Positions 10,079-60,000 of a stretch of 64,000 bases of DNA are shown here, piece after piece (the first letter of the stretch is position 1; every line of letters starts with the position of its first letter). The stretch is taken from positions 149,268,555 to 149,332,554 of the forward strand of contig JASEVX010000003.1 of the NCBI GenBank assembly GCA_031761405.1, in the 5' to 3' direction. The translations under genes and the position numbers were made by a program. The notes under the pieces were generated by a model. The model was not told the origin of the DNA and ran no database searches. It saw only the letters and a program-made list of their open reading frames with translations. The stretch comes from Serripes groenlandicus. Its lineage: Eukaryota; Mollusca; Bivalvia; Cardiida; Cardiidae.

Positions 10079-13000
10079 CTGAAAATAGAAATATAAGTGA
10101 GTCAAACTTCTATTTCACAATGCATTAGAATTACAAGACTGTTTGAAGGAACACATGTCATGTGCAACCATTTAATGCTATGTTCAAATATGGAAAAACC
10201 TAAAAATTAAAAGTAATATTATTCAATCAAGTTTAAAACATTTTAGCAAAAAAAGAAATTTCTCATGGCAATCAAATTCTGTCTTCTGCAGCATATGCAT
10301 CAAAGCTGTGTTTGGGGTTAATCATTTCCCTCATACTGCAATTCTGCAGCATACGACTTTGAACATATTTTGTCAAAAAAGTGCACGTTTTGTGCAATTT
10401 CTTCTTTTGTCACTATGCTTTCAAAAAGCTGTCTGCTGCAGAGGCGTCAGAAAGCGTCTACATGAGGGAAAGGGTTAAGAAGAGAATACTACCTTTTTAC
10501 AGATGACTTCTGTTCTAATACTGCCAGTAATCGTCTCCGCACTGTGCTCAGGCCTCTCTATCAAATTTGTTACTCCTTTCTTTGACTCAAAGGCGGAGTG
10601 AAATGAGGGCCAGCCCGAATTGGATTCGTATTTGCCATCAGATCTGCAAATAAAATATGGGTGTTTCTTTAACATCTATTTTAACTAGAAATACTGTGAG
10701 CAAAGCTCACTGAAGAATACCCCCCGCTCCCCTCCCAAAGCATCGGATACAATGGTAAAGTTTAAGTTGCGCTTACAAGGTATCACAGGAGTTCCTCGTA
10801 ACCTCTTAGTTGAATTATCTTCCCTTGGAAGAATCTGAGGAGAAAAATCTTCCTTCATGCATATCTACATATGATGTGTAGCCTTCATATACAGTTTAAA
10901 TCAAATCAACTGAGCCCTTTAGGAGGAGTAGCGCTTACGAGGTATGTGCACAGGAGTCCCTCGCAGGTAACCTCTAAGTTGAATTATCTCCCCTTGGAAG
11001 AATCCGAGGCGTATGATCTTCCTTCATGCATATCTACATATGATGTGTAACCTTCATGTAAAGTTTGAACCAAATCCATTGAGCCGTTTAGGAGGAGTAG
11101 TGCTTACAAGAAATGTGGAGGTATGTGCACAGGAGTCCCTCGCAGATAACCTCTAAGTTGAATTATCTCCCCTTGGAAGAGTCCGAGGCGTATGATCTTC
11201 CTTCATGCATATCTACATATGATGTGTAACCTTCATGTAAAGTTTGAACCAAATCCATTGAGCCGTTTAGGAGGAGTAGTGCTTACAAGAAATGTGGAGG
11301 TATGTGCACAGGAGTCCCTCGCAGATAACCTCTAAGTTAAATTATCTCCCCTTGGAAGAGTCCGAGGCGTGTGATCTTCCTTCATGCATATCTACATATG
11401 ATGTGTAACCTTCATGTAAAGTTTGAACCAAATCCATTGAGCCGTTTAGGAGGAGTAGTGCTTACAAGAAATGTGGAGGTATGTGCACAGGAGTCCCTCG
11501 CAGATAACCTCTAAGTTAAATTATCTCCCCTTGGAAGAGTCCGAGGCGTATGATCTTCCTTCATGCATATCTACATATGATGTGTAACCTTCATGTAAAG
11601 TTTGAACCAAATCCATTGAGCCGTTTAGGAGGAGTAGTGCTTACAAGAAATGTGGAGGTATGTGCACAGGAGTCCCTCGCAGATAACCTCTAAGTTAAAT
11701 TATCTCCCCTTGGAAGAGTCCGAGGCGTGTGATCTTCCTTCATGCATATCTACATATGATGTGTAACCTTCATGTAAAGTTTGAACCAAATCCATTGAGC
11801 CGTTTAGGAGGAGTAGTGCTTACAAGAAATGTGGAGGTATGTGCACAGGAGTCCCTCGCAGATAACCTCTAAGTTAAATTATCTCCCCTTGGAAGAGTCC
11901 GAGGCGTGTGATCTTCCTTCATGCATATCTACATATGATGTGTAACCTTCATGTAAAGTTTGAACCAAATCCATTGAGCCGTTTAGGAGGAGTAGTGCTT
12001 ACAAGAAATGTGGACATACGGACAGACAGACAGACAGACGGACGGACAGACAGGGTGATTCCTATATACCCCCCCAAACTTTGTTTGCCGGGGGGTATAA
12101 TAATAATAAAGACTTTATTTATAGAGGCTGCACAGTTGGGCATGACCAATCTTCCCTGTGGGTCTCTGTTAAAACATTTAAGTATATATAAGGCATCATA
12201 AACATATTTATATAGACAAAGGATGCATTCAAGATACCAGCACTGTTATGGGAGAGAATTAATTTATGTAAAAGATGTCCACCAGTGGTCCACTATGCCA
12301 CCAGCAAAGATATGTGGATTTCTTTAAATGTTCACTGTTCCTGACATGCAGTGGAATCTGGTTCCATAGCTTGAATTCATGTTAATATGATTTTATCTGA
12401 TATGAGCCCACACATGGGTTTACCTGAAGAATGACTAAACTGTCAAAGTGTCTGAATTATTTATATGTAGGGTCTATCATTTTAACCCTTTCCCATATAA
12501 AGACACTTTCTGACGCTTCTGAAGCAGACTAGATTTTGAAAACATGTTTTTAACTATTCAATAATTAAACTATCATTTATAGAGATTTTCTATATTTTGG
12601 TCTTGATAATTTCAAAGTCGTCTGCAACAAATTTATTGTATGTGGGAAAGGATTCACCCCTTTCCCACAAACAAAGAATCCGTAGCAAATGTCTTGTGAA
12701 AACAGCTTGGTCTAAATATGGAAAATCACTTTAAATAAAATTATAATAATTAAATAGAAATGAAAAAACATTGTGGCAAAAGGAAAAATTGATAACTATG
12801 AGTAATTACTCCTTTTGCCACTATGTTTTCAAAAGTTGTTGCTGCAGATGTCAGAATGTTTCTGTATGAGGGAAAGGGTTAACAACCAAAGTAAAGGAAT
12901 TAGTTCACCAATTAATGTTAGTATAACTATCACATGTTAACCCTTTCCCTCATACCATGATTCTGCAGCAGACGACTTTGAACATATTTTGTTAGAAAAT

Positions 13001-16000
13001 AGAAAATCTCTATAATTGAATGGATAACCTATGACTAAAAGTGGAAAACATTGTGTCAAAAGGAGAAATTGCACGTCTTGTGCAATTTCTTCTTTTGTCG
13101 CTATGTTTTCAAAAAGCTGTCTGCTGCAGAGGCGTCAGAAAGCGTCTATATGAGGGAAAGGTTAAGAAATGAATGCCGAAATTTTAACACGTTTACTTTT
13201 TTCCCCTTCACTATTGTCAAAGACCTTTGTTATGGTGACATGAAGACGAGTCTGTTTTAGGGTCATGATACGGTTATTTAGTTTTACCATCACTGACATA
13301 ATATTTTGAAAAAACCTCAGGGAAAAGTAATTTTAAATGCAGGAAATGGGGATGAAAAGAGATGAAAATTTGTAGGGTAATTTTTTTAAACAATTTATTC
13401 CTTTCCCACAATGTTTCAAAAGTCATCTGCAAATGAAACATGAAAAGTCACATATAAGGTTTTTTTCCTGTTTTTAACTCTTTCTCATTAGCAAACAAAA
13501 ACTGCAGATGACTTAGAAAGCATCTAATAAAGAAATTTGGAAATCTCAATAAATGAAAATTTAAAACATTGTGGCAAATGGAGAATATGAAGTGAGCAAT
13601 TTCTTCATTGGACACAATTTTTCAAAAGTTGTCTGCTGCTGATTATTCAAAATGTGTCTGCAAGTGGGAAGGTATAAAATATCAAATTAGATATGAATGG
13701 TTAACCTTTTCCCACATATAGATGCATTCTGATGCCTCTGCAGCAGACAACTTTTGTCACAATGTTTTCAATCCTATTTAATAATTATTCTTTCATATAA
13801 TTATAGGTTTTCAATATTTTGGCCTACATGTGTTCTAAATCATCTGCAGCAGATGTGTTGTATGTGGGAAAGGGCTCACTCATTTACTATTGACTGTTAC
13901 TTACCCAAATAATGTTACACCACAACATACACAATTGTATTCACCAGGGTCAGAATGGCTCACATACACTCCACTGAATGGCTGAAAAACCAACAACAAC
14001 AAAATAGTACATTACAGCTGAAAAAATAACTAAATGGTATGTAACTATGATATGTGTAATGCTTTCCCACAGACAGTAAATCTGAAGCATTTGAGTTGCC
14101 AAACATATTATACACGATATTGTAAGCATTGTAGCACAAGGAATAATTGCTCATCTTGAGCAATTTCTACTTTTGCCTAAATGCTTTCAAAAATCGTCTG
14201 CTACAGATGTGTCTACAGTACATGTGGGAAAGGTATAGTTCTGCTTGAAAACCAACGGCTGCTATCAGATCCAAATTTTAACTGTTTGTCTGATTTTTTT
14301 AGTTTTTGTGACTATAAAGATTTGTGACCAGTCCATTTCCAGATCAGGATTTATTGTTGCTCAGGATGGTTTGGATATCTAATGGTTGCAAATGAAATGC
14401 CTTATGATTGTTATTACTGAAGAACAGCTCATCAACCAAGAAAATGAATTGATAAGCAAGGGTTAAAGTGTAACCAGGATCCTTCCTTGTACTCGGGGAT
14501 CGCCAATTATATATATAAGTCAAGCTACTCGTTTGGCAAAAATAATTTTAATTTCCTTCTTTTCTTTTAATATCGTGTTCACCTTCTTTCACTTGTCCAA
14601 CTTGCGTACTCCTTTCTTAACATAAACCTAATCAATTATTAACCTTCTCTCAACACTTCGTCCGTTTTCTCTGTCTAAACTGTTCTTACTTCAATGTATT
14701 AACCTAACTCCACATTCCAACCTCCTGTCTTCTCTTCAATCGTTCTCACTCAACCAACTTAACCGCCCTGACTGTGTCAACTGTTTTCTAAAACTATATT
14801 TTTTTTCTCTCAGACTCAAGCCACACCCATTCATAATCCCTCTTCTTCATTCAACCAATCCTGATACATTTCCATAACACTTATAAATCCAATCATCATT
14901 AATCATAACTACATCCCTAATCAACCCTTATGAGGGCCAGAATTGCTCCACTGACAACAAGCAAATATAAACCTATAAACTTCTGGCATGTATTTTGACC
15001 AATCAACATGACATGAAGGTATCTGGTAGAGGATGAACCTAGGAACATTTCTATGAAATATTTTGAATAACATAATTTCACTTTAACCTCAAAAAGTAAA
15101 ATAGCACTGCAGCCTGATTGCAATGTTATTTTTTACTAATTAACCTTGCTTGAATCTGGTAGTGTCATCAAGAGAACATTCTATTAAATAATATGAAAAT
15201 TGGGCGAACATGTTCTAAGAAGAAGATCATAAAGTGTTAACTTTAGGCATATATAAGGTAAGACAGCTCAGCCCGCTGGCAGCCATCAACATTACTTGAA
15301 GGAATCTGTTAAAGGGTCACCGTAGAAACATTTCTATAAAATAATGTGAAAATCAGGCCAAAACGTTCTGTGAAATATTTTTCATAGTATAGACTATAGT
15401 CATATAAGGCAAAAGAGTCTTACAGCCATATTTTTACCAATCAACATAGCTTGAAAGAATTTGGTAGAGGATCAGGTCACCCAAGGAACATTTCTACAAA
15501 ATAATTTGAAAAAAGGCCAAATAGTTTCGGAGAAGATTTTAAAGTTTATTCTTTCAGTTGCCATTGCAACCAAAATTCTGCATGGATCAAACAGATTTAT
15601 TGGAATTTAGGAGAGTAAAGAGAGGATCCAAGCTATGGAGTTTCATCACAATCAGCCAAACGGATAATGTACCATGAGATAAGCTTGAATGGTTGAAAAA
15701 CAAGTGGATCTAAAAATTATAAAATTAAAAACTAACCCATTCCATACATCAAATCTGCAGCTTACGACTTTGAAAATATAGAGGCAGAAAAGCCACTATG
15801 AGATATCTATATGAATGAAAGTATAATGGGAGCAATTTCTCCATTTGCCACCAAATATTTTCAAAATATCATATGTCGAAGTGCCTTTGCAGGTGAGAAA
15901 GGGTTAGATACTTACTGGTTCTGTAGTTTGTTCTCTGCACACAGAAAACTGTTCTGGCGTCAGTCTTTTTTCCCATTCTTGTTTTGTTAAACTTCTGTAA

Positions 16001-27625: not shown

Positions 27626-27629
27626 TGAA

Positions 27630-33864: not shown

Positions 33865-33869
33865 GAAAA

Positions 33870-33983
33870 ATGTCTGAGGAATGTGAACTTGAAGTATTCA
33901 CCTTGCATGACCATCCTAAAGATGCCTTCCCAATTATGGAAGATATAAGGAGGCAAGGGAAAATGTGTGATGTCACACTGAAG
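33870..33983 (+). CDS. KLHL18: KLHL18 exon 1 (start codon)
   Basis: 38 codons, ends ...MCDVTLK, donor GTAAGT. Encodes the pre-BTB tail and the first BTB strand. It lies immediately after the minisatellite. Confidence 0.95.
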
Positions 33984-36900: not shown

Positions 36901-39900
36901 GGGTCATATTGGATCAGAAACTAGGTCAATAAAGGAAAATATTGTTCAAACTCCGGAGGCCGCATTTTTACTTTGAGCAAGTTGAAACTTAGTCAGAATG
37001 TTGTCTTGATGATATCTAGTCCATGTTGGAATATGGGTCATATCAGGTAAAAAATATAGATCACTAGGCCAAATGAAGGAAAGTATTGTTAACACTGTGG
37101 AGGTTGCATTCAGAATAATTGTCTTGATGTGTTTTGCATTGCACTACATTGTATAATTAAGGTGAGCGATCCAGGGCCATCATGGCCCTCTTGTTTTAAA
37201 TTCTGGTTAAAAATTTGCGTGCAACTAAATTAAGAGTCCATATCTTAGTATTTACTTGATGCATTGCATTGAAACATTTACAACCCTACCCAGCTATCAC
37301 ACCTATGTAGATTATCTTTTCAAGTTAGATCATTCTATCCTGCATTTTATGCTAGTTATGTCCCTTCTTTAACTTAGAAATTCTAGTTAAAGTTTCTGTG
37401 TCAGAAAACTTCTGTATGTGGGAAAATGTTGAACATAATTTATATGTTATTTTCAGTGCACTTGAAGCTTTGGTGAACTTTGCCTACAATGGTCGTGTGG
37501 AGATAGATCAGAAGAATGTACAGTTACTGATGATGGCAGCCAACTTCTTACAACTGCAGCCAGTTAAAGATGCTTGTTGTAGGTTTCTTATACGGAGGTA
37601 AGACTTTTGGTTTACTTCTTTCTCTTTTCCAACATTGCTTTTCATACCCTCTTTGATGAGCTAACAATGAACACTTTCTCCTTTTGTCACAATGTTTTCA
37701 AATAAATGTCTGTTGAAGACTTGTTAAATGCATGTGAATGTGGTTACAGGTAAAAATCGTACGGAATGTATTATAGTTTTACCTGCGATGTCCAGTATAT
37801 TGTCAGCTAAATAACTTTAGAAGCCTTTGTCCAATCATCACCAAATTTGGTCAGAATGTGTATTAGAATAATATCTTGGACAAGTTTGATAACTAGCCAT
37901 ATCGCTCAAAGAAATTGAGAGTTATCTTCCTTTAATTATAGAAATTACCTAAAATTGGTCTTGTCAGCCCAATAACTTTAGAAGCCTTTGTCATCACCAA
38001 ATTTGGTCAAAATGTGTATTGGCATAATATCTTGAACAAGTTCGATAACTAGCCATATGGCTTCATTCACTCAAGAGTTATCAACCTTTAATTGTAGAAA
38101 TTACCTAAAGTTGGTCTTTCAATAACTTTAAAAGCCTTTGTCCAATCACCATCAAATTTGGTCAAAATGTGTATTGGCATAATATCTCAGACAGGTTTGA
38201 TAATTAGCCATATCGCTGTAGGTCAATTAAGAGTTATTGCCCTTTAATTATAGAAATGACCTCAAATAGGTATTGTCTGTATAATAACTTTTGAAGCCTA
38301 CATCCAATCATCACCAAATTTAGTCAGAATGTGTATTGGCATAGTATCTCGGACAAGTTCTATATTACTTGAGTCACTCTAGAGTTATTGCCCTTTAATG
38401 ACAGAAATTACTGTAAATCGGCCTTTTCCCCTCAATAACTTCAGAAGCCTTTGTCCAGTCACCATTAAATTCGGTCAGAATGTGTATTGGCAAAATATCT
38501 CGGACAAGTTGGATTACCAACCATATCGCTTCATTCACTGGAGAGTTATTGCACTTTGATTAAATAAATAACCTCAAATCGGTCTTGTCCGATCAATAAC
38601 TTGTGAAGCCTTTATCTGATCATAACCAAATTTAGACAGTATGTAGAAGCGCAGAATATCTTGGTCAGGTTTGATAACTAACCACGTTATCTTAGTCACT
38701 ACACACTTATGTCCCTTGAAATGGCCAAAACTGTATTAACAGTGTCCACTCTCTAAATTTGCCTGACGTACAACCAATTATCACTAACTTGGTCTCAAAA
38801 AACAAGACGGGCGTATTTTGTGACATTTGGCGCTCTTGTTTACTATTGGGTAACACTTTTCTGCTTTAGGAAGACCTGTGACCTGTTTATGGAGCTACTG
38901 ATCCTGATATATTAATGGTCAATTTTCATCTTTAGTTCCATGGTAAACTTTGACATGCTAAGATGTAACATTTACTATAGGCAGATATCTTTTAAAACTT
39001 GCAGGAAGCCGAGAAAATACTCATAATGCAACCTAGCTTTTACTGACAAATCTCTCTTTCTATTTAGAATTATTAAGATTTTAATACTGAAATATATATA
39101 TAACTCTATAATTCAATATTTCGGCAATAGGCCTTAATAGGTTATATTGAACAAAGATCACACACTATATTGCATCCATCTTGACGGAATTGAACATGAA
39201 GGCCTATTGCCGAAATATTGAATTAAATAGTTTTTTTTTTATCTTTAACCCTTTCCCTCATATAGACGCTTTCTGATGCCTCTGCAGCAGACAGCTTTTT
39301 GAAAACATAGTGACAAAAGAAAAAATTGTACAAAACGTGCAATTTCTCTCCTTTTGCCACAATGTTTTCCACTTTTTGTCATAGGTTATCCATTCAACTG
39401 TGGAGATTTTCTATGTTTTGACAAAATAAGTTCAAAGTCATCTGCTGCAGAATTGTCATATGAGGGAAAGGGTTAAATATTAATTCCCTATGGAATAGAA
39501 CTTTATCATACTGAGATATATATATACATGTATTGGTAAATACTAAATAGTTAAACCCTCTTCCACATATAGGCGCTTTCCGATGCCTCTGCAGCAGACA
39601 ACTTTTTGAAAACATTATGAGCAATTTCTCCTTTTGCCACAATGTTTTCAAATCTTTTCAATAATTATACTGTCATTTATGAAGTTTTTCCATATTTTTG
39701 CCTCAAGGTTTACAAAGTCGGCTGCTCTAAATTTGTTGTATGGACAAAATTGTTTGATTGTTTTATGGGAATGGGTAAGGTCCTTGTCTCAGAGCTCAGC
39801 CTATTTATCTTTTTGCAGATTGCACCCACAGAACTGTATTGGCTTACGGTCATTCGGGGATCAGTACATGTGCCCTTCACTCGTTGAGGCTGCAAACAAA

Positions 39901-42900
39901 TTTATACAAAAACATTTCAAGGATGTAGTTGCCACGGAGGAATTCTTCAACATGTCTAATACGGAGGTGGTGGAGGTTCTTGGTCGTGACGAGCTGAATG
40001 TTAACACAGAGGAACAGGTAAGGACGGAACTAGCCCAGAGGCCCGGTAAACCCTCTCCCACATCCAACAAATTTACTTTCATTGCAATAAAATGCAATAT
40101 CTTGATATATATGAAAGTATAGTCATTGAATAGAGCTGGAAACATTCTGGCAAAATGAGTAAATGGCTCATCATGAGCTATTTCTCCATTTGCAACAATA
40201 TTTTCAAAGTTGTTTGCTAAAAATGGGTTAACCCTTTCCCTCATATAGACGCTTTCTGACGCCTCTGCAGCAGACGGCTATTTGAAAACATAGTGGCAAA
40301 AGAAGAAATTGCACAAAACATGCAATTTCTCCTTTTGCCACAATGTTTTCCACTTTTGGTCATAGGTTATCCATTCAATTATAGAGATTTTCTACCTTTT
40401 CACAAAATATGTTCAAAGTCGTCTGCTGCAGAATTGTCGTATGAGGGAACCAGGGTTAAAACGTGCGTATGCAGAGAAAGGGGTGGAATAATAATTTCCA
40501 AACAACATCTCACTCAATACTCAACCCAACCCTTTTTAGTGGTAACTCAAAAGAACCAACCATTCTTTTGACTACCTATGACAAAGAGTATAAGGATCAA
40601 GCATGAAACTCACACTTTAACCCTTTCCCTCATACGGCAATTCTGCAGCAGACGACTTTGAACGTATTTTGTCAAAACATAGAAAATCTCCATAATTGAA
40701 TGGATAACCTATGACAAATAGTGGAAAACATTGTGGCAAAAGGAGAAATTGCACGTTTTGTGCAATTTCTTATTTTGTCACTATGTTTTCAAAAAGCCGT
40801 CTGCTGCAGAGGCGTCAGAAAGCGTCTATATGAGCTAAAGGGTTAACTAAGGCCCTGTAGCGGTTCCCCTAATCGAGACTGCAAGGCAATCCATTTTTAA
40901 CCAGCATCCTACTAAAGGTGAAGAGGAGGTGGTAAATATTTATGTAGAAGATTTGCCTTTAATGGCTGAAGTGAGAGAGAATTTGTATCAAGAATATTGT
41001 CTTATAATTTGCCAGGTGTTAACATCTTTTTACTCTGATAATTTCAAAGCCATGTCTCTAGAAATTAAACTATATGAATGTTTGGAAATTTAAAACCATT
41101 CAGATCAGATCATATTGTGTTTATAATGTCATACAGTGACTTCATTCTGTTGCCTTTCTCTGATGAAAGCATATTTTGAAGCAACTACCAGTATTTCTTT
41201 TTGTATTTTCTATTTTTTCTTACAATGGTTTATTTTCTAAGTTGGAAAAGTTCAAAATCAGTTCAGCAGGTGAAGGTTTATAATTGACCTGATTTCAATT
41301 TTGTGATATTTTTTAAAGATGTCTGCTTTCAAAAAATGTCTGATGTAAGTAAAAGTAACATCTGGATATTGGGAAGTTTACTTTTGATAAAGAGTTGAAA
41401 TCATTTCGAAAAAAATAATACATGCTTGTTTTGAGCAGTGTCTCTTTTTTTCACAATGTATTTAAAAGTCATCTGCTACAGAGTTGTCAAAATTGTCTGT
41501 ATGAGGTATCAGTTAAAGTAATAACTGCACTCTATCTGTTTACAGGTATTTGAGGCAGCTTTGTCCTGGATAAAGAGAGAAGAAGGAAAACGAAAAGAGT
41601 ATTTAGCAGATTTAATGGTAAAGGTCCGCCTACCGTTACTCACGCCTCATTTCCTCAGTGACAGGGTAGCCAGTGAAGAGCTGGTAAAATCTTCACACAA
41701 ATGCAGGTAAGTTATTTCAATGTCCCCCACTGTTTGGGTATGGCAATGTTAACCTTTTCCCTCATATAGACGCTTCTGCAGCAGACGGCTTTTTGAAAAC
41801 ATAGCGACAAAAGAAGAAATTGCACAAAACATGCAATTTCTCCTTTTGCCACAATGTTTACCACTTTTTGTCATAGGTTATCCATTTAATTATGGAGATT
41901 TTCTATGTTTTGACAAAATACGTTCAAAGTCGTCTGCTGCAGAATTGTCGTATGAGGGAAAGGGTTATATTGCATTTATCATGACAAGCTTACCATACTG
42001 TATGTATGATAGGCCTTCATAAGGAGTACTTAGTTGACCCTTTCCCAAATAAAGACACTTTCTGATGTCTGCATTAGATTTTATTAGACTTTTGAAAACA
42101 TTTGGGCAAAAGGAGTAATTTGCTCATAATGAGCAAATTCTCCTTGTGTCATTATGTTTTCAACTTTATTCAATAATTGTTCTTACCTTTCTGCTTGTCT
42201 ATAAATTGAAATCAATATTGGAAAAGGTGCCAAAAATCATCTGCATCAGGTTAAGGTTTATAAGTCCAAAATCGTAAATTAAGGATGGGTTACCTGAAGC
42301 TGTGCGTTTTCATTATCAACAGAGATTTGCTTGATGTAGCCAGGGATTACCACCTGATGCCTGAGAGGCGAGCTCTACTGATGACATTCAAGGTCAGACC
42401 CAGGTGTTGTACAGACATACCAGGACTTATTTATGCTGTAGGAGGACTCACTTCTTCAGGTAGGTCCCCATGCTTCTCCAATAACGACCTCTACTGATGA
42501 CATTCAAGGTTCGACCCAGGTGTTGTTCAGACATACCAGGATTTATTTTATGCTGTAGGATGACTTACTTCTTCAGGTAGGCAGATGCTTCAAGATGCAT
42601 CTGCAAATGGGAAAGGGTTAATATTAACATATATTGTAAGAACTTGTTTTTTCAATCAATTGGAAAACAATTAATATAAACAACAGTGTAAATGGATATT
42701 ACAGTAATCATTTTTAGAAACCCAGACATACGTCTGCTTGGTTGATATTTTTTTAAATCTGTGCAGTTCCCCATTATTTACATATCACTAGCTTAACCAC
42801 TCATACAGGAAACTAAACTATAATAATTTTCGAGAAAAGAACAGACCAAAATAACATTTTTGATATTGTTACCAGGTGACTCACTGAGCACAGTAGAATG

Positions 42901-45900
42901 CTATGATCCTTTGCTGAATCGTTGGACTGTAGCTGAAGCGATGAGCACAATGAGAAGTCGGGTTGGAGTCACTGTGTTAAATGGTAACTCATTTAACTAC
43001 TATCATTTTTTATAAGCTCACCTGAGCAAGATGTGCTCAAGTTAGCTATTGTGATCACATTTTGCATCTTTTTTTCATGAAAGTTTTTTAGATTGTACAT
43101 CTTCATCAAATCTTGATCAAGTTCGAAACTTGGTCATGTGATGTCAAAATTAGATAACTAGACCAAATTGAAGGAAGCCGTATTTTTAATTTGAGCATGT
43201 TGAAACATTGTCAGAATAGGTGTTTTGATGATATCTGGATTATGTTCGAATGTAGGACGTGTCTGGTGAAAAACTAGGTCACTGTCAAATTGAAGGAAAA
43301 ATATTAGCTTACTGACCACAAAATGAGATATTGTGATTGACTATGTTATTGGCATTACGTAAGTAAGCGATCAAGGGCCATCATGACCATCTTGTATAGA
43401 AATATCTCTACATTTTCTTTGATAGATGCTTCGACAATTCCCACAAAGTTATTTACTGATATTCATTTATCGTAGGCTTTGAATTCTCAGAGACCAATAA
43501 TTGCATTCAGTTGAATTTTACATAAACTAGTAGTTAAACATCCACCTGTTGTCATATAACATCTTCTTCACAATGACTGTAATTGATGGATGATTCCATT
43601 TATGTATTAATAAGACATTTAATTGAACCCTGCAGATCTGAATAAATTCACTTTAGGGCTGTTCCGGGAAAAAGTGTCTGGGAGGAATGACCTATCAAAT
43701 TTTAATAATTTTTTGGGCACATTTTATTTTTGTTGTCCCCCGCTTTTAGCGAAAGCGTGGGGACTATTATTTCTCATTTGTCAGTCAGTCCGTCCGTCCG
43801 TCAGTCCGTCAGTCCGTCAGTCAGTCTGTCAGTCCGTCACGCTGTCACAAAAACTTTAACCTTGGTCATAACTTCTGAACCGTAATAGGTACTGCTTTCA
43901 TATTTCACATGTGTATTCCTTGTGACAACCCCTTTCCATCAATACCAATTGTTTTGACCTTGTGACCTTGACCCTGACCTTTGACCTACATTTTAAAAAT
44001 ATTAACCTTGATCATAACTTTTGAACCATAACCGGTAGGGCTTTTTTATTTCACATGTGTATTCATTGTGACAAGACCTTTTCGTCAGTATCATATTTTT
44101 GGACCTTCTGACTTTTGACCGTGACCTTTGACCTACATTTTGAAAACTTTAACCTTGATCATAACTTTTGAACCATTACAGGTAGGGCTTTTATATTTCA
44201 CATGTGTATTCCTTGTGACAAGCCCTTTCACTCAGTACCCATATGTTTGACCTTGTGACGTTCATCATGACCTTTGACCTAATAAGACCCCCAAAGCGGG
44301 GGACCATAATTCTCTGAATTTGCTTGTTTCAATTACAACACACCCCCTCCCACCAAAAATACAAAAAGGCTGTGGTTCCTCCACCCTAGACATTTTTCCC
44401 TGGAACAGCCCTTAGCATTATTATAAGTAAAAATAATTATCTACCTACATCTGAATTTGCATTATCATCCAATTATGTTATAACTTCAATCCATATTGTA
44501 GGTAAGCTGTATGCTATAGGAGGGTATGATGGAACAGACAGACTAAATACAGTTGAAGTGTTTGAACAGGAGAAAAAGAGCTGGAGGAAAGTGGCGGCCA
44601 TGAATTGCAAGCGAAGGTACAGTATCTGATACACTCAATTATCCCTTTTCCTGAAACAGATGATTTTTGACACCTTCAGCAGATTAGTTTTGAAAACATT
44701 ATTGGGTATAGAAAAAATTGCTCAAAATAAGAAATTCTACTTTTCCCAATGTTTTAAGTTCTGAACCAATTTTATACTTCTAAATTTCCAAATGGTTTAT
44801 TTTCTTAAACAGAAGAGGAGATGATGCACTGAATAGCATTTAAGGTCATCAGTAAGAAAAGGGTATAACCGTTCCAATGTGACCTTGACCCTATTTTTGG
44901 CCGGATTGCTCTAGCAATTCCTGTCTATAGATTGGCGATGTCTGTCTGTCTGTCTGTCCTGTCCGTCAACATTTTGGTTAAAGTTTCAGGTTGAGGCAAA
45001 ATCTCAGCACTGGAAAGGGTTACAAACTTGAAACTTTGCCTGAAAGTAACCAGTAACAAGTTCTATTGATTTCTATGGTTCTTTTGACATTGACCTTGGT
45101 TTGTCGATTTTCAAGGTCAAATTGCCGACAATCCGGCCTTACCGTCTTCAGCGGTTTCTTGTTACATGTGAAAGTCTAGCATTAATGGTCATTAATAAGA
45201 ATTGGGCATAACCATTACAATGTGACCTTGACCCAAGATTTACATGTGAAAGAACAGCATTAATGGTCATCAATAAGAATTGGGCATAACCATTACAATG
45301 TGACCGTGACCCAAGTTTTACATGTGAAAGAACAGCATAAATGGTCATCAGTAAAAAAAAATAGGATATAACCATTACAATGTGACCTTGACCCTATTTT
45401 AACATGAAAATTGTTGTATATATTTTCAAATTTTAGCTCCATGTCCAACTTATGTCATGGCAAAATTACTTTTCTGCATTGTTAAGTCTTGTCCGACCAT
45501 AACTCAAAAACTATTCAATGGATAACAATGTACATGTATTTCATTCGTGTTGGAACTATGTAGGAAAAGACCAAAAATCTGCAGCAGATGACTTTGAAAG
45601 CATCTTAGATAAGAACTCTGAAAACAACATTATAATAATTTAATAGAGTTGAAAACATTGTAGATAAAGAAGAAATTGCTCATTATGAACATTTTCTGTT
45701 GCCCATTATGAATAATTATGTCTCCCCCTGTATACAGGGGAGATATATTGTTTTTGTCCTGGGCGTCTGTCTGTCTGTCCGTCTGTCCGAAATCGTGTCC
45801 GCTCCATATCTCCAAGACGGCTTGAAGGATTTTCATGAAACTTGGCTCACATGTTCACCTCATCAAGGCGACGTGCAGAACCCGCGTCTCGACAATATAG

Positions 45901-48900
45901 GGTCAAGGTCAAGGTCACGCTTGAAGGTCAAAGGTTTGAGGCTTTATTTCGTGTCCGCTCCATATCTCCCAGACGGCTTGAAGGATTTTCATGAAACTTG
46001 GGTCACATGTTCACCTCATCAAGGCGACGTGCAGAACCCGCGTCTCGATAATATAGGGTCAAGGTCACACTTGAAGGTCAAAGGTTTGAGGCTTTATTTC
46101 GTGTCCGCTCCATATCTCCGAGACGGCTTGAAGGATTTTCATGAAACTTGGGTCACATGTTCACCTCATCAAGGCGACGTGCAGAACCTGCGTCTCGACA
46201 ATATAGGGTCAAGGTCAAGGTCACGCTTGAATGTCAAAGGTTTGAGGCTTTATTTCGTGTCCGCTCCATATCTCCCAGACGGCTTGAAGGATTTTCATGA
46301 AACTTGGGTCACATGTTTACCTCATCAAGGCGACGTGCAGAACCCGCGTCTCGACAATATAGGGTCATTGTCAAGGTCACGCTTGAAGGTCAAAGGTTTG
46401 AGGCTTTATTTCGTGTCCGCTCCATATCTCCCAGACGGCTTGAAGGATTTTCATGAAACTTGGGTCACATGTTCACCTCATCAAGGTGACGTGCAGAACT
46501 TGCGTCTCGACAATATAGGGTCAATGTCAAGGTCACGCTTGAAGGTCAAAGGTTTGAGGCTTTATTTTGTGTCCGCTCCATATCTTCCAGCCGGCTTGAA
46601 GGATTTTAATGAAACTTTGGTCACATGTTCACCTCATCAAGGCGACGTGCAGAACCCGTGTCTCGACAATATAGGGTCAAGGTCAAGGTCACGCTTGAAG
46701 GTCAAAGGTTTGAGGCTTTATTTCGTGTCCGCTCCATATCTCCAAGACGGCTTGAAAGATTTTCATGAAACTTGGGTCACATGTTCACCTCATCAAGGCG
46801 ATGTGTAGAACCCATGTCTCGACTGTCTGTCTGTCTGTCCGTCCGTCTGTCCGTCCCAAATCGTGTCCGCTCCATATCTCCAAGACGGCCTAAAGGATTT
46901 TCATGAAACTTGGGTCAAATGTTCACCTCATCAAGGCGATGTGCAGAACCCATGTCTCGACTGTCTGTCTGTCTGTCCCAAATTTATAGGTTGGAATGTT
47001 TTGAGAGATTTTGACAGATATTTGAGGGGAGACATCTGTTTTTTGCAAAAACAATTCTAGTTTTTACTTTTACCAAATTGTTTTTTAAGTTTTGCAGATT
47101 CGTCAAAATGTGTCTTGTTTGAGAAAGGGTTAAAAATGAGCTTCCTTTGTCCATCTTCTTTTCATCTTAAATTTTCATTTTGCCGTTCTAGAAATATATA
47201 AATGTAGCTTATCAGGTAACAAATTTCATGTATTTATTACAGTGCTTTGGGTGCTGCTGCACTTAACCGGAAGTTGTATGTCCTTGGTGGGTATGACGGA
47301 GTGACCTCTCTTAGATCTGTAGAGGTATATGACCAAGATAATGATATGTAAGTGGAGCTCGTTTGATCTTTGGTAATCCAATCCATTTGTGCTAATGACT
47401 TTAACCCTTTCCCTCATACGACAATTCTGCAGCAGACGACTTTGAACATATTTAGTCAAAAAATAGAAAATCTATAATTGAATGGATAACCTATGACTAA
47501 AAGTGGATTTTTTTTTTTTTGTGCAATTTCTTCTTTTGTCACTATGTTTTCAAAAAGCTGTTTATATGAGGGAAAGGGTTAACACAACTGCAGCAATTCA
47601 ATTTTGGAAAGGATAAAAACTCTGTAACTTTATATTTCTACTTTTCACAATAAAACACATTTTTTTACGAAGATGTTTTTAAAGTAGATGACTGTAAAAA
47701 ATATAAAATAGCATATTCCGGTAAATAGTTCCAACAGCAGATAGCCTTATATGGCTATAGTGAAAATACTCAAAGTATCTGGCCAACTTTCAAATAATTT
47801 TGTAGCAATGTTCCTTTGGTGGCCCTCTAAGATATTCCTTTAAACCATCTTAATTAGTTAAAAAAAGGTGACCACCAGGGGGCGGATCTGTTTTGCCTTG
47901 TATGGCTATAATTTAAAAAATATATATATTGACAGTGGACTGATACTGGCCCGCTTAGGTCTCTTGTTTCCTTGATGTTTTCAAAGATGTCTTCTGCAGA
48001 TTTGTTGTATGATGGAAACAGTTAATTATGTTTTCATCTCTCTCAGGTGGACCATGCTCTCCAATATGTTGAAACACAGAAGTGCTGCTGGAGTGACGGT
48101 TCTTGATGGGGAAATATATGCCTGTGGGGGCCATGATGGACTGTCCATATTTGATTCTGTAAGTTTAGTCCTATCTTGACCTTGGGTAACCAATTGTTTT
48201 AATAAGTGCTTTCATAAACCTTCCAAACTTCCAGACGCATCAAATATTAAATTGTATTACCATTACATCAGCCCTCACAAAAATAGTTTGTAGTTATCCC
48301 CTGCCAATTACAAAGGGAATTAACCCTTTCCCTCATATGGCAATTCTGCAGCAGACGAATTTGAATGTATTTTGTCAAAAAATAGAAAATCTCCATAATT
48401 GAATGGATAACCTATGACTAAAAGTTGAAAACATTGTGGCAAAAGGAGAAATTGCTCGTTTTGAGCAATTTCTTCTTTTGTCACTACGTTTTCAAAAAGC
48501 CGTCTGCTGCAGTCGTCAGAAAGCGTCTATATGAGGGAACGGGTTTGAGTAAATCAAATTAATAAAGACCATTGGAAATTAATGTGAACTAATGAAATCT
48601 CTATAATTGAATGGATAACCCATGACGAAAAGTGGAAAACATTTTGGCAAAAGGAGAAATTGCACGTTTTGTGCAATTTCTTCTTTTGTCACTATGTTTT
48701 CAAAAAGCCGTCTGCTGCAGAGGCGTCAGAAAGCGTCTATATGAGGGAAAGGGTTAAGAAATAGTGTCTTGTCTTTTTGTTTGTCTGTTACCAAACTTGT
48801 GGCGTAAACTAAACCGTTTTAAGTCTTTGATGAAACTTTCTACAAACAGCCACAATATTGTTTAGATGTCTCAAACATATTTTGCATATCTAAGGATTGA

Positions 48901-49626
48901 TTTGTTCTGCATTACGTCCTTTAGACTGATAGTAAGCAAGGATGTGGCCATCTGTAACATGACATTCTTCTCATAATTATTTCTGATTACATTCTAAATT
49001 AAATACATTTCTTACTCTGACCGAAATACAGCAAATATGCAGCCAATGAGTTGAAGATATCTAGGGAAAAATGTTGATATTCCCTATAAAGGATAGTATA
49101 ACTATTGAAATGAGATGAGTTAAAATGTGAACAATTTCTCATATTGACAAAATGTTTTCAAAAAAGTGAACATGTGGGAATGGGCTAAGCCATAAAATCT
49201 CATAATGTTGATCAAGTGTTTATTTTATCCCAACAGGTGGAATGTTACAATGAATCTCTAAAATCTTGGCGTCATATCACTCCAATGACATCAAAACGCT
49301 GTCGACTCGGCTTGGCTGCATTGAATGACAAACTTTATGCTGCTGGTGGGTATGACGGGTCAGTGTTTTTACGAACAGTTGAGTGTTATGACCCGTCAAC
49401 AAACAAATGGACTGATGTGAATAAAATGAATGTGAAACGCAGTAGGATGGCACTAGTGTCCACTTACGGAAAGTTGTATGCAATTGGCGGTTATGATGGA
49501 CAGTCTAATTTGAACTCTGTAGAAGTTTATGACCCAGAAGCTGATGTATGGCAATTTGTGAAGCCCATGTGCGCCCATGAAGGGGGCGTCGGTGTGGGTG
49601 TAGTACCTGTTGAACTGGATCATTAA
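33870..49626 (+). CDS. KLHL18: Kelch-like protein 18 (CUL3 adaptor)
   Basis: Eleven exons: 33870-33983, 34554-34687, 37457-37597, 39819-40017, 41546-41706, 42323-42459, 42876-42983, 44502-44616, 47243-47347, 48047-48158, 49237-49626. All junctions are GT-AG and in phase; total 1716 nt, 571 aa, against about 574 in vertebrate KLHL18. BTB domain about residues 20-130 ([31 protein letters not shown]), BACK about 135-240 ([30 protein letters not shown]), six Kelch blades about 285-567 with GGYDG/GGHDG turns. The ending [15 protein letters not shown] is like the family's C-terminus. KLHL18 proteins bridge CUL3 ubiquitin ligase to substrates (Aurora A in mammals). The start matches the family's N-terminus in length. 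Introns are loaded with foldback MITEs and arrays, none disturbing the frame. Confidence 0.96.
34039..34255 (-). mobile_element. decayed foldback MITE in KLHL18 intron 1
   Basis: TACCCAGTCTCACATGCAGA... CATCTGCAGCAGA on the left, CTCTGCATCAGATTTGTTGT on the right. It starts ~50 nt after the exon 1 donor. Confidence 0.55.
34554..34687 (+). CDS. KLHL18: KLHL18 exon 2
   Basis: Acceptor TTTTAG, donor GTAAGT. Encodes [20 protein letters not shown] and following residues, the BTB core with the conserved HR...LAA motif. Confidence 0.95.
35195..37400. repeat. KLHL18 intron 2: ~142-bp tandem repeat split by a type C element
   Basis: GGTTAAAGTTTTGC units start at 35259, 35401 and, after an interruption, about 37203. 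The interruption (35561-37196) is a complete type C element in reverse orientation (AGCTCACCTATGCACGAAGT ... AGGGCCATCATGGCCCTCTT), itself holding ~8 units of a ~145-bp array (TAGGTCACTAGG...AAAATCTTGTTAAC). The flanking repeat resumes in register (ATGGCC... / TTCTGGTTAAA), so the nesting order is clear. Confidence 0.8.
37457..37597 (+). CDS. KLHL18: KLHL18 exon 3
   Basis: Acceptor TTTTCAG, donor GTAAGA. Encodes [20 protein letters not shown]... to [11 protein letters not shown], end of BTB and start of the 3-box. A decayed MITE end lies ~24 nt upstream. Confidence 0.95.
37745..38840. repeat. KLHL18 intron 3 dispersed element with ~140-bp tandem units
   Basis: From CAGGTAAAAATCGTACGGAA to AAACAAGACGGGCGTATTTT...GGCGCTCTTGTTTA. 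Internal units TAACTTTAGAAGCCTTTGTC...AGAGTTATTGCCCTTTAAT repeat about six times. A second copy in opposite orientation is at 61139-61940. Confidence 0.8.
39245..39476 (-). mobile_element. complete TTAA foldback MITE in KLHL18 intron 3
   Basis: TTAA at 39245-39248 and 39473-39476; CCCTTTCCCTCATATAGACG left, palindrome with TTGTACAAAACGTGCAATTT, TCATATGAGGGAAAGGG right. An older copy follows at 39553-39740, ending ~80 nt before exon 4. Confidence 0.9.
39819..40017 (+). CDS. KLHL18: KLHL18 exon 4
   Basis: Acceptor TTTTTGCAG, donor GTAAGG. Encodes [20 protein letters not shown]... to [11 protein letters not shown], first part of the BACK domain. Confidence 0.95.
40046..40215 (+). mobile_element. 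decayed foldback MITE, 28 nt after KLHL18 exon 4 donor
   Basis: AAACCCTCTCCCACATCCAA on the left, GTAAATGGCTCATCATGAGC palindrome, eroded right end. Confidence 0.65.
40228..40459 (-). mobile_element. TTAA foldback MITE in KLHL18 intron 4
   Basis: TTAA at both ends, CCCTTTCCCTCATATAGACG left, palindrome GAAATTGCACAAAACATGCA, right GTATGAGGGAACCAGGGTTA with a 2-base insertion. Confidence 0.9.
40617..40846 (+). mobile_element. complete TTAA foldback MITE in KLHL18 intron 4
   Basis: TTAA at 40617-40620 and 40843-40846; left CCCTTTCCCTCATACGGCA; palindrome GCACGTTTTGTGCAATTTCT; right TATGAGCTAAAGGG (two changes). It is in opposite orientation to the copy 160 bp upstream. Confidence 0.9.
41546..41706 (+). 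CDS. KLHL18: KLHL18 exon 5
   Basis: Acceptor TGTTTACAG, donor GTAAGT. Encodes [20 protein letters not shown]... to HKCR, second part of BACK including [11 protein letters not shown]. Confidence 0.95.
41749..41968 (-). mobile_element. TTAA foldback MITE, 43 nt after KLHL18 exon 5 donor
   Basis: TTAA at 41749-41752, AACCTTTTCCCTCATATAGA left, right terminus intact with TTAT in place of TTAA (41965-41968). A decayed second copy is at about 42034-42258. Confidence 0.87.
42323..42459 (+). CDS. KLHL18: KLHL18 exon 6
   Basis: Acceptor ATCAACAG, donor GTAGGT. Encodes [20 protein letters not shown]... to [12 protein letters not shown], the BACK-Kelch linker and start of blade 1. A broken copy of its second half follows at 42487. 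Confidence 0.95.
42487..42581 (+). pseudogene. broken tandem copy of KLHL18 exon 6 (3' half plus donor)
   Basis: From CGACCTCTACTGATGACATT to TTCTTCAGGTAGG it repeats 42370-42464 with about ten differences, including a one-base frame disturbance in TTATTTTATGC and TGA in place of the second glycine codon of GTAGGAGGA. The donor GTAGG is preserved. It has no acceptor of its own, so it should be skipped. Confidence 0.9.
42876..42983 (+). CDS. KLHL18: KLHL18 exon 7
   Basis: Acceptor TTACCAG, donor GTAACT. Encodes [20 protein letters not shown]... to VGVTVLN, rest of Kelch blade 1 and start of blade 2. Confidence 0.95.
43738..44328. mobile_element. array element in KLHL18 intron 7
   Basis: Hairpin CCCCCGCTTTTAGCGAAAGCGTGGGG at 43738-43763, (CAGTCCGT)n at 43789-43849, then three units with a 146-147 bp period (AACCTTG at 43858, 44004, 44151) and a closing GACCCCCAAAGCGGGGGAC. 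Same architecture as elements A, B and D with a different sequence. Confidence 0.75.
44502..44616 (+). CDS. KLHL18: KLHL18 exon 8
   Basis: Acceptor ATTGTAG, donor GTACAG (non-consensus +4 to +6). Encodes [20 protein letters not shown]... to AAMNCKR, Kelch blades 2-3. Confidence 0.94.
44638..44820 (-). mobile_element. decayed foldback MITE, 22 nt after KLHL18 exon 8 donor
   Basis: ATTATCCCTTTTCCTGAAAC, CCTTCAGCAGATTAGTTTTG and TTGCTCAAAATAAGAAATTC are recognisable; the right end is lost. Confidence 0.55.
44830..45440. repeat. KLHL18 intron 8 tandem repeat (78 bp)
   Basis: ACATGTGAAAG starts at 45164, 45242 and 45320, each followed by AGCATTAATGGTCATCA...CATTACAATGTGACC. A (GTCT)n tract at 44939-44959 suggests another array element. 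Confidence 0.7.
45717..47060 (+). mobile_element. Helitron-like element D with a different 156-bp array
   Basis: In KLHL18 intron 8. Starts TATGTCTCCCCCTGTATACA (hairpin) then ATATTGTTTTTGTCC, (GTCT)n, then seven units of GTGTCCGCTCCATATCTCC... at 45795, 45951, 46101, 46257, 46413 and onward (156 bp; one unit 6 bp short), two more (GTCT)n blocks, and ends GACATCTG-TTTTTTGCAAAAACAATT-CTAG at 47060. Both ends match those of A2/A3 read on the minus strand; the array does not. Because 156 is divisible by 3 a 369-codon frame stays open, but it is repeat and not a gene. Confidence 0.8.
47243..47347 (+). CDS. KLHL18: KLHL18 exon 9
   Basis: Acceptor TTATTACAG, donor GTAAGT. Encodes [20 protein letters not shown]... 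to VYDQDND, Kelch blade 3 into 4. Confidence 0.95.
47401..47582 (+). mobile_element. TTAA foldback MITE with two deletions, KLHL18 intron 9
   Basis: TTAA both ends, 54 nt after the exon 9 donor. The left half of the palindrome is replaced by a run of T (47508-47520), and the GTCTGCTGCAGAGGCGTCAG arm is deleted before TATATGAGGG. Confidence 0.87.
48047..48158 (+). CDS. KLHL18: KLHL18 exon 10
   Basis: Acceptor CTCTCTCAG, donor GTAAGT. Encodes [20 protein letters not shown]... to [11 protein letters not shown], Kelch blade 4-5; the GGHDG variant is also typical of vertebrate KLHL18. Confidence 0.95.
48320..48545 (+). mobile_element. TTAA foldback MITE with private mutation GGGAACGGG, KLHL18 intron 10
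   Basis: TTAA at 48320-48323, left CCCTTTCCCTCATATGGCA, palindrome GCTCGTTTTGAGCAATTTCT, right terminus TATGAGGGAACGGGTTTGAG. The A-to-C change and the flank to about 48586 recur inverted at 51199-51260. Confidence 0.87.
48596..48757 (+). mobile_element. TTAA foldback MITE lacking its left arm, KLHL18 intron 10
   Basis: Starts mid-element (AATCTCTATAATTGAATGG), palindrome GCACGTTTTGTGCAATTTCT, complete right arm and TTAA at 48754-48757. Confidence 0.87.
49237..49626 (+). CDS. KLHL18: KLHL18 exon 11 (stop codon)
   Basis: Acceptor CCCAACAG. Encodes [20 protein letters not shown]... to the stop TAA at 49624-49626: the last two blades with GGYDGSVF and [18 protein letters not shown]. Confidence 0.96.
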   Translation: MECYNESLKSWRHITPMTSKRCRLGLAALNDKLYAAGGYDGSVFLRTVECYDPSTNKWTDVNKMNVKRSRMALVSTYGKLYAIGGYDGQSNLNSVEVYDPEADVWQFVKPMCAHEGGVGVGVVPVELDH

Positions 49627-57000: not shown

Positions 57001-60000
57001 AAAGTTGGGTGGAACGAAAAACTTCCAAGTCGAAAAAGAGCCATAATTGTTACAAAAACCTTGACATGTTTATGTACTCTTATATGTTGATGGAGGTGAT
57101 GATGGTAAACAAATAGAAATTGCTCATAATGAGGCAATTATTTTATTTGCCACAATGTTTTCAAATCTAAACAATTATTACACTTTCATTTATACATGTT
57201 TTCAATATTCTAGGCTTAAATGTTTTTCAAAGGCATCTGCTGCAAATTTGTTTTATGTGTGAAGGGTTTAAAAGAGGTATTCAAAAATAAAAGGAACATA
57301 CTGGAGTTGTAGTTCAAAGAAGGCTCTCTGTTTGCGCAACATTTGTAAAAGTTGGTCATCTGGATATTCTTCGTCGGATTCATACTGCTCTTCTGAAAGT
57401 TGAATGATGAAAAGATAAGCTTGAATTGTCACTGAAGTTTACTTAATATTACCCAAAAATGCTTTGTTAGTATGACATGAATGCCCATACACACACCCAA
57501 AAATCAATTAGTTAAGGGTTAGGCTATATATAGTACATTTAACTGTGACCTTGACCTTTGACCTAGTTCGGTGATTTGCGAACTTTCCTATTTCAAAGCT
57601 CATATTAGATGAAAGTTTATGAAAGTTCCTTAAAAAGTTATTATTTCAAAGGAGAGGACATTTTAACACTCACCTGTTAACTGTGTTTGTTCGACTCTGG
57701 CCCGTTTCTGATCTAAACGTTCTACTGACATGGATGGTGGAAGACTGTCTACACTAGACAGAACTGTACTTGTCGTTGTACTAAACAGATCTTTTACTAC
57801 CTGCAGTATATAAATAAATACCCTAACTTACACCGTCACATCATTGTCTTGACACTTTCCCACAAACAACAGCAAACTTTGGGATAATCTGGAAAACTTA
57901 ATGATTGAAATCCTAATCATTGAATAGAGTTGAAAAGATTGTGGCAAAATGAGAAATAGCTCATAATGATAAATTTCAACTTTTGCCACAATGTTTTTAA
58001 AAGTCTGGCAGATTCTTCAAAATGCGTCTACACAAGGGAAAGGGTTTGTATACCAATTACCTAATATGAATTTTTAAAGTCATCTGCTACAAAATATCTA
58101 TGAGTATTCTAAGGTGGAAAATTGGGATAAATTAGACATAACTTGAAACAAAGTTGAAAACATTGTGGGAAATAACCTGTTAATGTTTCTCAAAGTCGTC
58201 GGGGATAAAGTTGACACTTGATAACATATGATCTGTATCAAAGAGTTAAAATTATTTTGTAGATTAAAACAAAACTCTAAAATCTAATGACAGTTTTAAA
58301 AGAACTTTCCTTCTGATACATTCTATTTAGACAAGCCTGGAAAAAGCAATTATAGTGTCAATTGTACTTTGTATGAGCTGACAACCTTTGATATAACCCT
58401 TTCCCACATACAGTTTTGCAGCAGACGAATGATAACATCAGGATTTCTAATTTAAACAAGAGCACCGCGTACGGCACAGACGCTCGACTGATAGGGAGAA
58501 AACAGAAAAAAAGCTGAGCTGAACAAAAAACCTTAACCGGACGACCACGCCGCCGCCAACAAAAAACCTTAACCGGACGACCACGCCACCGCCAACAAAA
58601 AACCTTAACCGGACGACCACACCACCGCCGCCAACAAAAAACCTTAACCGGACGACCACGCCGCCGCCGCCAACAAAAAACCTTAATCGGACGACCACGA
58701 CCACGCCAGGGTCATGACAATAGCTCTCTTTTTTCAAAAATCTAGCTAAAAATCTCTGTTAGAAAAACCATCATTAAATAAAGTATTAAACATTGTTGCA
58801 AAAGGAGAAATTGCTCATTTTAACAATTTCTTCTTTTGTCTCAATTGTTTTCAAGAGTCGTCTGCTGTAGAAGTGTCAGAAAACGTCTGAATGTGGGAAA
58901 TGGTTCAGGAAGAAGAAGTTGCTTACAATAAACAATATCTCATCTTCTCAGATTGATTTACAATATGTTAATCTTTTCCTAATATAATAAATCTTTATCA
59001 GATGATACAAAATATCTAGACAATTTTTTTTTCAAAGTTGTCTGAAAGCTGAGCTGAACAAAAAACCTTAACCGGACGACCACGCTGCCGCCAACAAAAA
59101 ACCTTAACCGGACGACCACGCCACCGCCAACAAAAAACCTTAACCGGACGACCACACCACCGCCGCCAACAAAAAACCTTAACCGGACGACCACGCCACC
59201 GCCGCCAACAAAAAACCTTAACCGGACGACCACGCCGACGACGACCACGCCAGGGTCATGACAATAGCTCTCGTTTTTTCAAAAATCTAGCTAAAAATCT
59301 CTGTTAGAAAAACTATCATTAAATAAAGTATTAAACATTGCGGCAAAAGGAGAAATTGCTCATTTTAACAATTTCTTCTTTTGTCTCAATTGTTTTCAAG
59401 AGTCGTCTGCTGTAGAAGTGTCAGAAAACGTCTGTATGTGGGAAATGGTTCAGGAAGAAGAAGTTGCTTACAATAAACAATATCTCATCTTCTCAGATTG
59501 ATTTACAATATGTTAATCTTTTCCTAATATAATAAATCTTTATCAGATGATACAAAATATCCAGACAATTTTTTTTTCAAAGTTGTCTGAAAGATGGAAA
59601 GGGGACCAATGAATGGCTTTCTGACGCCTCTGCTGCAGACGGCTTTTTGAAAACATAGTGACAAAAGAAGAAATTGCTCAAAACGAGCAATTTCTCCTTT
59701 TGCCACAATGTTTTCCACTTTAAGTCATAGGTTATCCATTGAATTATAGAGATTTTCTATTTTTTGACAAAATATGTTCAAAGTCGTCTGCTGTAGAATT
59801 GTTGTATGAGGGAAAGGGTTAAACTTACTTGTCCAATGGCAGACTCCACAGTCCGTCTCCCTATCTTAGGACTGCTGGAATTGGTTGGTTTTATCACATT
59901 ATTATTTCTTCCTTCCTCCTTTGAACCATGAGGCCTGTCAACACTTTCATCAGGATAATTCTCGAGCCTCTGTCTCGGATGATCTCCCCTATGTTTGTCC

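Follow-up and report, generated by a model that had tools for sequence, protein, structure and literature searches.

The window analysed here is a stretch of 64,000 nucleotides from the clam Serripes groenlandicus (contig JASEVX010000003.1, positions 149,268,555 to 149,332,554). It contains three genes, KLHL18, MsrB and a PROSER3-like gene, together with many copies of a foldback family of miniature inverted-repeat transposable elements (MITEs) with TTAA ends, which often lie directly behind the splice donors of these genes. The donors were rebuilt by reading frame and homology, giving 10 in KLHL18 (K1 to K10), three in MsrB (M1 to M3) and six in the PROSER3-like gene (P1 to P6). A first-pass annotation made from the letters alone had also arrived at 19 donors, and the positions agree wherever it gave them. 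Every one of the 19 donors has GT. In 18 cases the reading frame continues into the following exon; for P6 no following exon was found. The genes and exons, in window positions, are:

33865..49626, forward strand: KLHL18, 11 coding exons and 10 introns; in-frame assembly, 79% identity to Mercenaria KLHL18
33865-33983, 34554-34687, 37457-37597, 39819-40017, 41546-41706, 42323-42459, forward strand: KLHL18 exons 1-6
42876-42983, 44502-44616, 47243-47347, 48047-48158, 49237-49626, forward strand: KLHL18 exons 7-11
9974..15969, reverse strand: MsrB, last four coding exons; in-frame assembly, Pfam SelR 3e-42
M1 ending 15916, M2 13981-13905, M3 10643-10493, M4 10078-9974, reverse strand: MsrB exons
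57302..63563, reverse strand: PROSER3-like gene, six exons; in-frame assembly, the gene extending past the last donor
63563-63445, 63055-62862, 62367-62182, 60485-59829, 57800-57674, 57392-57302, reverse strand: PROSER3-like exons

The KLHL18 product is a stop-free protein of 571 amino acids that aligns end to end with KLHL18 of Mercenaria, Mya, Dreissena and Haliotis, with an identity of 79% to Mercenaria mercenaria and 78% to Mya and Dreissena. The MsrB assembly yields a SelR domain spread over four exons; position 15969 marks the point where similarity begins in exon M1, not necessarily the 5' end of this exon. A PDB search with one MsrB exon gave no match. The PROSER3-like product comprises 457 amino acids over its six exons and is covered in full by several bivalve homologues. 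A domain search of its own sequence gave no Pfam family, and 25 of its 31 homologues carry a precomputed PF27936 assignment; the best named match is from Mercenaria (3e-67). The name PROSER3 is the label of the first-pass annotation and is borne by none of the listed homologue matches.

The MITE family was annotated without reference to the genes, using a profile hidden Markov model (HMM) that was first built on 13 copies and then refined on 44. The search of the window returned 85 non-overlapping matches of at least 15 bits, which after joining of fragments gave 82 elements covering 13,555 bp; the reversed sequence, used as a decoy, gave nothing above 9.6 bits. A score of at least 100 bits was reached by 43 of the 82 elements, and the earlier estimate of about 40 copies in the 64 kb falls short of the full number. 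Near-intact copies are about 230 bp long, have the structure TTAA-CCCTTTCCCTCATA...TATGAGGGAAAGGG-TTAA and contain a second inner hairpin, as in the following representative:

40229..40459, forward strand: near-intact MITE with TTAA ends, CCCTTTCCCTCATA termini and an inner hairpin; nhmmer 266 bits

The segment 40228-40460 folds into a long hairpin with a minimum free energy of -99.8 kcal/mol. Among 34 full-length copies, TTAA is found at both ends in 18 and at one or both ends in 29. The hallmarks of piggyBac elements are a TTAA target site duplication and a terminal inverted repeat of 12-19 bp beginning with CC[C/T]T (PMC2872659; here and below, term counts aside, papers are cited from excerpts of their text). 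The family shows the TTAA duplication and the CC[C/T]T repeat and is short, non-coding and high in copy number, as piggyBac MITEs are; judging from the TTAA duplications and the CCCTTTCCC termini, it is a piggyBac-type MITE. The 18-base terminus had zero exact matches in viral contigs and 4 in prokaryote contigs, the latter being taken to be chance.

The copies that start within 62 nt of a donor are:

34044..34256, forward strand: MITE, 60 nt past KLHL18 donor 1; HMM 121 bits
34728..34854, forward strand: MITE remnant, 40 nt past KLHL18 donor 2; HMM 39.5 bits
37660..37744, reverse strand: MITE remnant, 62 nt past KLHL18 donor 3; HMM 39.6 bits
40049..40225, reverse strand: MITE, 31 nt past KLHL18 donor 4; HMM 78.6 bits
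41752..41967, forward strand: MITE, 45 nt past KLHL18 donor 5; HMM 225.8 bits
44643..44800, forward strand: MITE, 26 nt past KLHL18 donor 8; HMM 50 bits
47402..47579, reverse strand: MITE, 54 nt past KLHL18 donor 9; HMM 131 bits
15734..15905, reverse strand: MITE, 10 nt past MsrB donor M1; HMM 56.8 bits
13703..13875, forward strand: MITE, 29 nt past MsrB donor M2; HMM 102 bits
10323..10476, reverse strand: MITE, 16 nt past MsrB donor M3; HMM 144 bits summed over two joined fragments
63227..63408, forward strand: MITE, 36 nt past PROSER3-like donor P1; HMM 64 bits
59616..59821, forward strand: MITE, 7 nt past PROSER3-like donor P4, with TTAA directly after GTAAGT; HMM 224 bits
57112..57267, forward strand: MITE, 34 nt past PROSER3-like donor P6; HMM 68 bits

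A copy thus starts within 60 nt at 12 of the 19 donors and within 62 nt at 13 of them (7 of 10 in KLHL18, 3 of 3 in MsrB and 3 of 6 in the PROSER3-like gene). All 12 donors for which the first-pass annotation had listed an adjoining copy were recovered by the HMM, and K3 was added as the 13th. The distances read by eye lie close to those from the HMM (in nt, eye/HMM: K1 ~55/60, K2 ~43/40, K4 28/31, K5 43/45, K8 22/26, K9 54/54, M1 9/10, M2 26/29, M3 14/16, P1 ~30/36, P4 7/7, P6 ~31/34). At the other six donors the nearest copy lies 121 nt (K6), 162 nt (K10) and 81 nt (P3) away, or past the end of the intron (K7, P2 and P5, at 1659, 761 and 406 nt). With regard to K6, the last 91 nt of KLHL18 exon 6 are tandemly duplicated together with the donor inside intron 6 (42369-42476 and 42485-42591; 97 of 109 columns identical). 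The duplicate carries a second donor-like CAG/GTAGG at 42577, and a weak MITE remnant of 39 bp (42581-42619, 15.9 bits) starts about 4 nt past it. Since this remnant adjoins the tandem duplicate of the donor, K6 may once also have had an adjoining MITE.

The gene background predicts only 1.9 of 19 donors with a copy within 60 nt (binomial p 3e-8). We also rotated the donors against the insertion points after removing MITEs and exons from the coordinates, a circular shift that keeps the clustering of both; the count of 12 then had a p of 5e-5 for shifts within each gene and of 6.5e-4 for shifts across the window, where the highest count in any rotation was 13. At thresholds of 15, 25, 40, 60 and 100 bits, the 62-nt count was 13, 13, 11, 9 and 6, compared to expected values of 1.97, 1.72, 1.51, 1.27 and 0.88. 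The youngest class (16 copies of at least 200 bits) reached only 2 donors versus 0.33 expected, a weak signal (p 0.04). The scores of donor-adjacent copies range from 39 to 226 bits, and the presence of both young and decayed copies indicates an insertion process that was not a single burst. These results, which come from a single 64-kb window and 19 donors and concern a hypothesis formed on the same data, confirm that MITEs are enriched on the donor side of the introns in the three genes.

The introns themselves are crowded with MITEs. Among the 18 complete introns, the median is 1298 nt for total length and 460 nt for non-repeat DNA (MITEs removed, along with other repeats that occur more than once in the window or stand in tandem). 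There are 2.22 MITEs per intron, and 12 of the 18 hold two or more copies. Per kb of non-repeat DNA there are 4.77 MITEs in introns and 2.98 in intergenic DNA, and 42 of the 82 copies lie outside introns. Copies also adjoin each other: 10 of 81 neighbour pairs are at most 30 nt apart versus 3.9 expected (p 0.004), a count in which possible split elements and a duplicated pair in intron 4 of the PROSER3-like gene are retained. In that intron, 58747-59044 and 59292-59603 resemble a segmental duplication; the MITEs at 58747-58904 and 59292-59449 have identical ends and flanking words and similar scores, and each stands beside a similar repeat. If so, this pair does not represent independent insertions, and the 7 copies assumed for the intron would be an overcount that renders its donor test conservative.

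The acceptor side gave a weaker signal. A copy lies within 60 nt of 4 of 20 acceptors (p 0.14; circular shifts 0.13 and 0.12) and within 80 nt of 9 of 20 (binomial p 3e-4), the closest being:

47965..48023, forward strand: MITE remnant, end 23 nt upstream of KLHL18 acceptor 10; HMM 30 bits

Copies ending 20-50 nt upstream had been reported for KLHL18 exons 3, 5, 10 and 11. This holds for exons 5 and 10 (37 and 23 nt, respectively); the copy at exon 11 lies 72 nt away, and at exon 3 none was found above threshold. Six more acceptors have a copy at 42-78 nt (KLHL18 exons 2, 4 and 6, MsrB M2, and PROSER3-like P4 and P5). The closest copies stand 7 and 10 nt from donors as compared to 23 nt from acceptors.

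The explanation we favour, to which we give a probability of roughly 0.6, is that the elements inserted near exons and were subsequently pruned by the unequal reach of the splice signals, in short introns that grew from the inside. One piggyBac-type MITE family would have landed in the region over a long time. The introns would be crowded because they were originally short, and insertion near exons would have been tolerated or perhaps mildly favoured. Purifying selection would limit how close a copy may come, about 6 nt being needed at the 5' splice site versus 20-50 nt before the 3' splice site, and the shorter essential signal would thus leave the closest copies on the donor side. Repeats, tandem arrays among them, may then have inflated the introns from within, making the exon-proximal copies conspicuous. 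The traits of the family, the distances and their significance, the crowding and the donor/acceptor offset are observed, whereas the short ancestral introns, the mild preference for exon edges, the purifying selection and the order of events are what we infer; a splicing function of the elements is needless for this explanation, and a splicing role is without support. The first-pass annotation had also proposed selection, in the form of insertions being removed elsewhere. The donor/acceptor offset fits protection of the longer 3' signals, whereas selection by itself does not explain why copies lie near exons.

How far crowding accounts for the pattern was examined at the level of introns, leaving out K7, P2 and P5, which hold no MITE, and the open P6, so that 15 introns entered the tests. 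When landing was restricted to TTAA sites with other repeats left in place, 11 donors had a copy within 60 nt versus 5.5 expected (p 2e-4). The Fisher combination gave 3.2e-4 for donors with repeats uncollapsed and 0.026 with repeats collapsed, the latter being the weakest test of all. Collapsing the repeats also shortened first gaps (K6 from 121 to 8 nt, P4 from 7 to 0 nt), so K6 is among the 12 and 13 donors counted below with both repeats and gaps collapsed; the shortened gaps also make the log-sum p-values of such runs too small, and these values were not used. On the acceptor side, Fisher's combination gave 0.42 with repeats uncollapsed, and the tests with repeats collapsed were not significant (TTAA-restricted landing 9 versus 6.8 expected, p 0.13; Fisher 0.87; a further run 0.06). 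Crowding can therefore account for what is seen at acceptors and for some of what is seen at donors. Over the donor tests as a whole, about 4-7 of the 15 introns were expected and 11-13 observed (p 5e-5 to 0.026), so that donors retain an excess of roughly two- to threefold relative to measured crowding, in one window and post hoc. The interpretation offered at first, which had left crowding unweighed (short non-repeat introns with 2.2 copies each), is supported in part.

Several results weigh against the favoured explanation. Measured crowding accounts for only part of the donor excess: under uniform landing in the 15 introns, 12 donors have a copy within 62 nt versus 3.9-4.1 expected (p at most 1e-4; 5e-5 at 3.9) with repeats uncollapsed, and 13 versus 5.6-6.0 (p at most 1.5e-4; 1e-4 at 5.6) with repeats collapsed. 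TTAA-restricted landing within 60 nt with repeats collapsed gave 12 versus 6.8 (p 0.0012), and collapsing the repeats while leaving the gaps uncollapsed gave 12 of 15 versus 5.7 (p 3e-4). Permuting the gap order within introns singled out the first gap (p 0.0024) and not the last (p 0.83). Without collapsing, the TTAA-restricted test also found an excess at acceptors (9 versus 4.5, p 0.003). The ancestrally short introns are, in addition, a presumption of the explanation. Purifying selection beside mammalian exons leaves transposable elements depleted, which is the opposite direction (PMC3088655), and piggyBac in the mouse genome is biased against introns (PMC3983033). In favour of the explanation, the same source describes vector piggyBac in mouse as mainly enriched in 5' untranslated regions (UTRs) and weakly in exons and 3'UTRs (PMC3983033). 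Also in its favour, modelled old introns of 239 bp on average gave 9.1 expected donors (p 0.07), and of 284 bp 8.1 (p 0.02). The donor count would be ordinary if undetected insertions made up at least half of the remaining intron DNA, so that the old introns averaged no more than about 240 bp.

The residual excess may instead reflect a genuine bias of insertion towards the first tens of intron nucleotides, with the transposase complex guided to exon edges, above all on the donor side, by open or linker DNA or by co-transcriptional structure. Such a preference near exons was among the causes suggested by the first-pass annotation, and we consider it possible but rather unlikely. In its favour, the two- to threefold excess survives the intron-level nulls on measured non-repeat DNA, is seen in all three genes and extends over several age classes, including the six donors with copies of at least 100 bits; in addition, 104 of 132 genomes show a preference of introners for predicted nucleosome linkers (PMC9860276). 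TTAA density is flat (11.1 per kb at the 5' end of introns, 10.6 at the 3' end and 10.8 in the middle), which rules out TTAA-rich donor flanks as the cause. Against it stand the single window with a hypothesis taken from the same 19 donors, the poor showing of copies over 200 bits, the acceptor side that leaves no residual after collapsing, and the fact that no preference is needed if the introns once were about 240 bp or less. A nucleosome-sized exon effect was also rejected, as exon length did not correlate with the MITE gap (Spearman 0.09, p 0.79) at 11 of the 13 close donors, M1 being dropped because its exon start is unknown and P4 because its exon is 657 nt long. An age gradient was rejected as well: the median scores were 79 bits at donors (n=13), 84 at acceptors (n=9), 109 in intron interiors (n=19) and 125 in intergenic DNA (n=42), the P6 copy being counted both as donor-adjacent and as intergenic, and despite the lower medians beside exons, exon-adjacent and interior copies did not differ (p 0.69). 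Chance combined with ascertainment, in which the family is dense in a single window and the pattern was chosen once the sequence had been read, appears improbable. The post hoc choice of the test, the single region with three genes, the weakest test and the whole-window rotations that match the observed count speak for it, whereas the shifts that preserve clustering and the gene-blind recovery of all 12 reported cases speak against it.

The role of the hairpin in splicing that had been proposed at the outset was not borne out, and functional hairpins that insulate the 5' splice site, or pair with an acceptor-side copy to bridge the intron, strike us as very improbable. A near-intact copy does fold into a long hairpin, and 7 of the 18 introns have copies near both ends. 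However, the predicted unpaired probability of the 5' splice site was 0.40 with the element and 0.39 without it (Wilcoxon p 0.31, n=13; the replacement was downstream intron, itself able to hold further copies), so refolding gave no sign of a function through donor accessibility. Bridging is likewise rejected, since donor- and acceptor-side copies occur independently (neither in 4 introns, acceptor only in 2, donor only in 5, both in 7; Fisher p 0.62). The 13 donor copies comprise 6 in sense and 7 in antisense orientation and are often decayed, and 6 of the 19 donors have no copy within 62 nt. The idea that the elements brought the introns along can practically be dismissed. MITE-like elements do create introns in some lineages (PMC9860276), but at the 13 close donors the copies start 7-62 nt inside the intron rather than ending at the splice sites, none spans from donor to acceptor, and GT lies outside the annotated copies at 19 of 19 donors. 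Introns with two or more copies and the copies outside introns argue in the same direction.

Besides the three genes, the window contains an open frame at 27331-28074 that encodes a C17orf113-type zinc finger (Pfam PF25431, 1.3e-15). Self-comparison revealed long repeat blocks at 19180-21673, 22112-23873, 32136-33867 and 45793-46961. The third of these reaches the first KLHL18 coding exon, and the acceptor of exon 1 lies at the edge of array sequence.

The family resembles the coral CMITEs and AmiPB elements in its TTAA duplication, CCCTTT termini, lack of coding capacity, many copies and closely adjoining copies, the abutting copies recalling the tandem coral CMITEs (PMC2872659). The sequence likeness is one of termini (CCCTTTCCCTACTA in coral AmiPB3 versus CCCTTTCCCTCATA here). 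The clam elements contain a long inner hairpin and measure about 230 bp, as compared to about 100 bp for coral CMITEs (PMC2872659). The coral paper uses the term "intron" once and "exon" never, and hence gives no association with splice sites (PMC2872659, term counts). Transposable elements in mammalian introns show a similar donor-side bias very near exons, ascribed to a signal of about 6 bp versus 20-50 bp (PMC3088655). They are, however, depleted beside exons, where the clam family is enriched; for DNA transposons of all lengths the depleted zone measures 50 bp (human) or 100 bp (mouse), and for other classes 50-2000 bp (PMC3088655). Introners are also MITE-like in part, tied to exon-intron boundaries and biased to linkers, but they constitute whole introns with terminal splice sites, while the elements described here sit inside existing introns (PMC9860276).

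In the open-licence literature, as far as its texts were available, we found no report of a MITE family enriched beside splice donors. The nearest report concerns a MITE-like repeat in the haemoglobin introns of another clam, the heterodont Lucina pectinata. This foldback repeat likewise recurs in several introns of the same genes (PMC4732748). It has no identifiable target duplication, unlike the family here, and the likeness is one of description; the excerpted text gives no splice-site distances for it (PMC4732748).

MITEs make up a considerable share of bivalve genomes (PMC10294476). The present family is ordinary in kind; its distribution is not, and needs the whole genome to be believed. 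A piggyBac-type MITE of a heterodont bivalve that is targeted genome-wide to roughly the first 60 nt of introns is a tentative proposition that we hold to be doubtful. If it were true, donors would be landing zones and introns would lengthen from a point directly after the 5' splice site, the opposite of what the element-poor zones beside mammalian exons show. A pile-up by donors would mean that the integration machinery senses exon edges or, alternatively, that splicing tolerates compact introns full of hairpins. Both alternatives bear on how introns lengthen, and both are testable in bivalve genomes.

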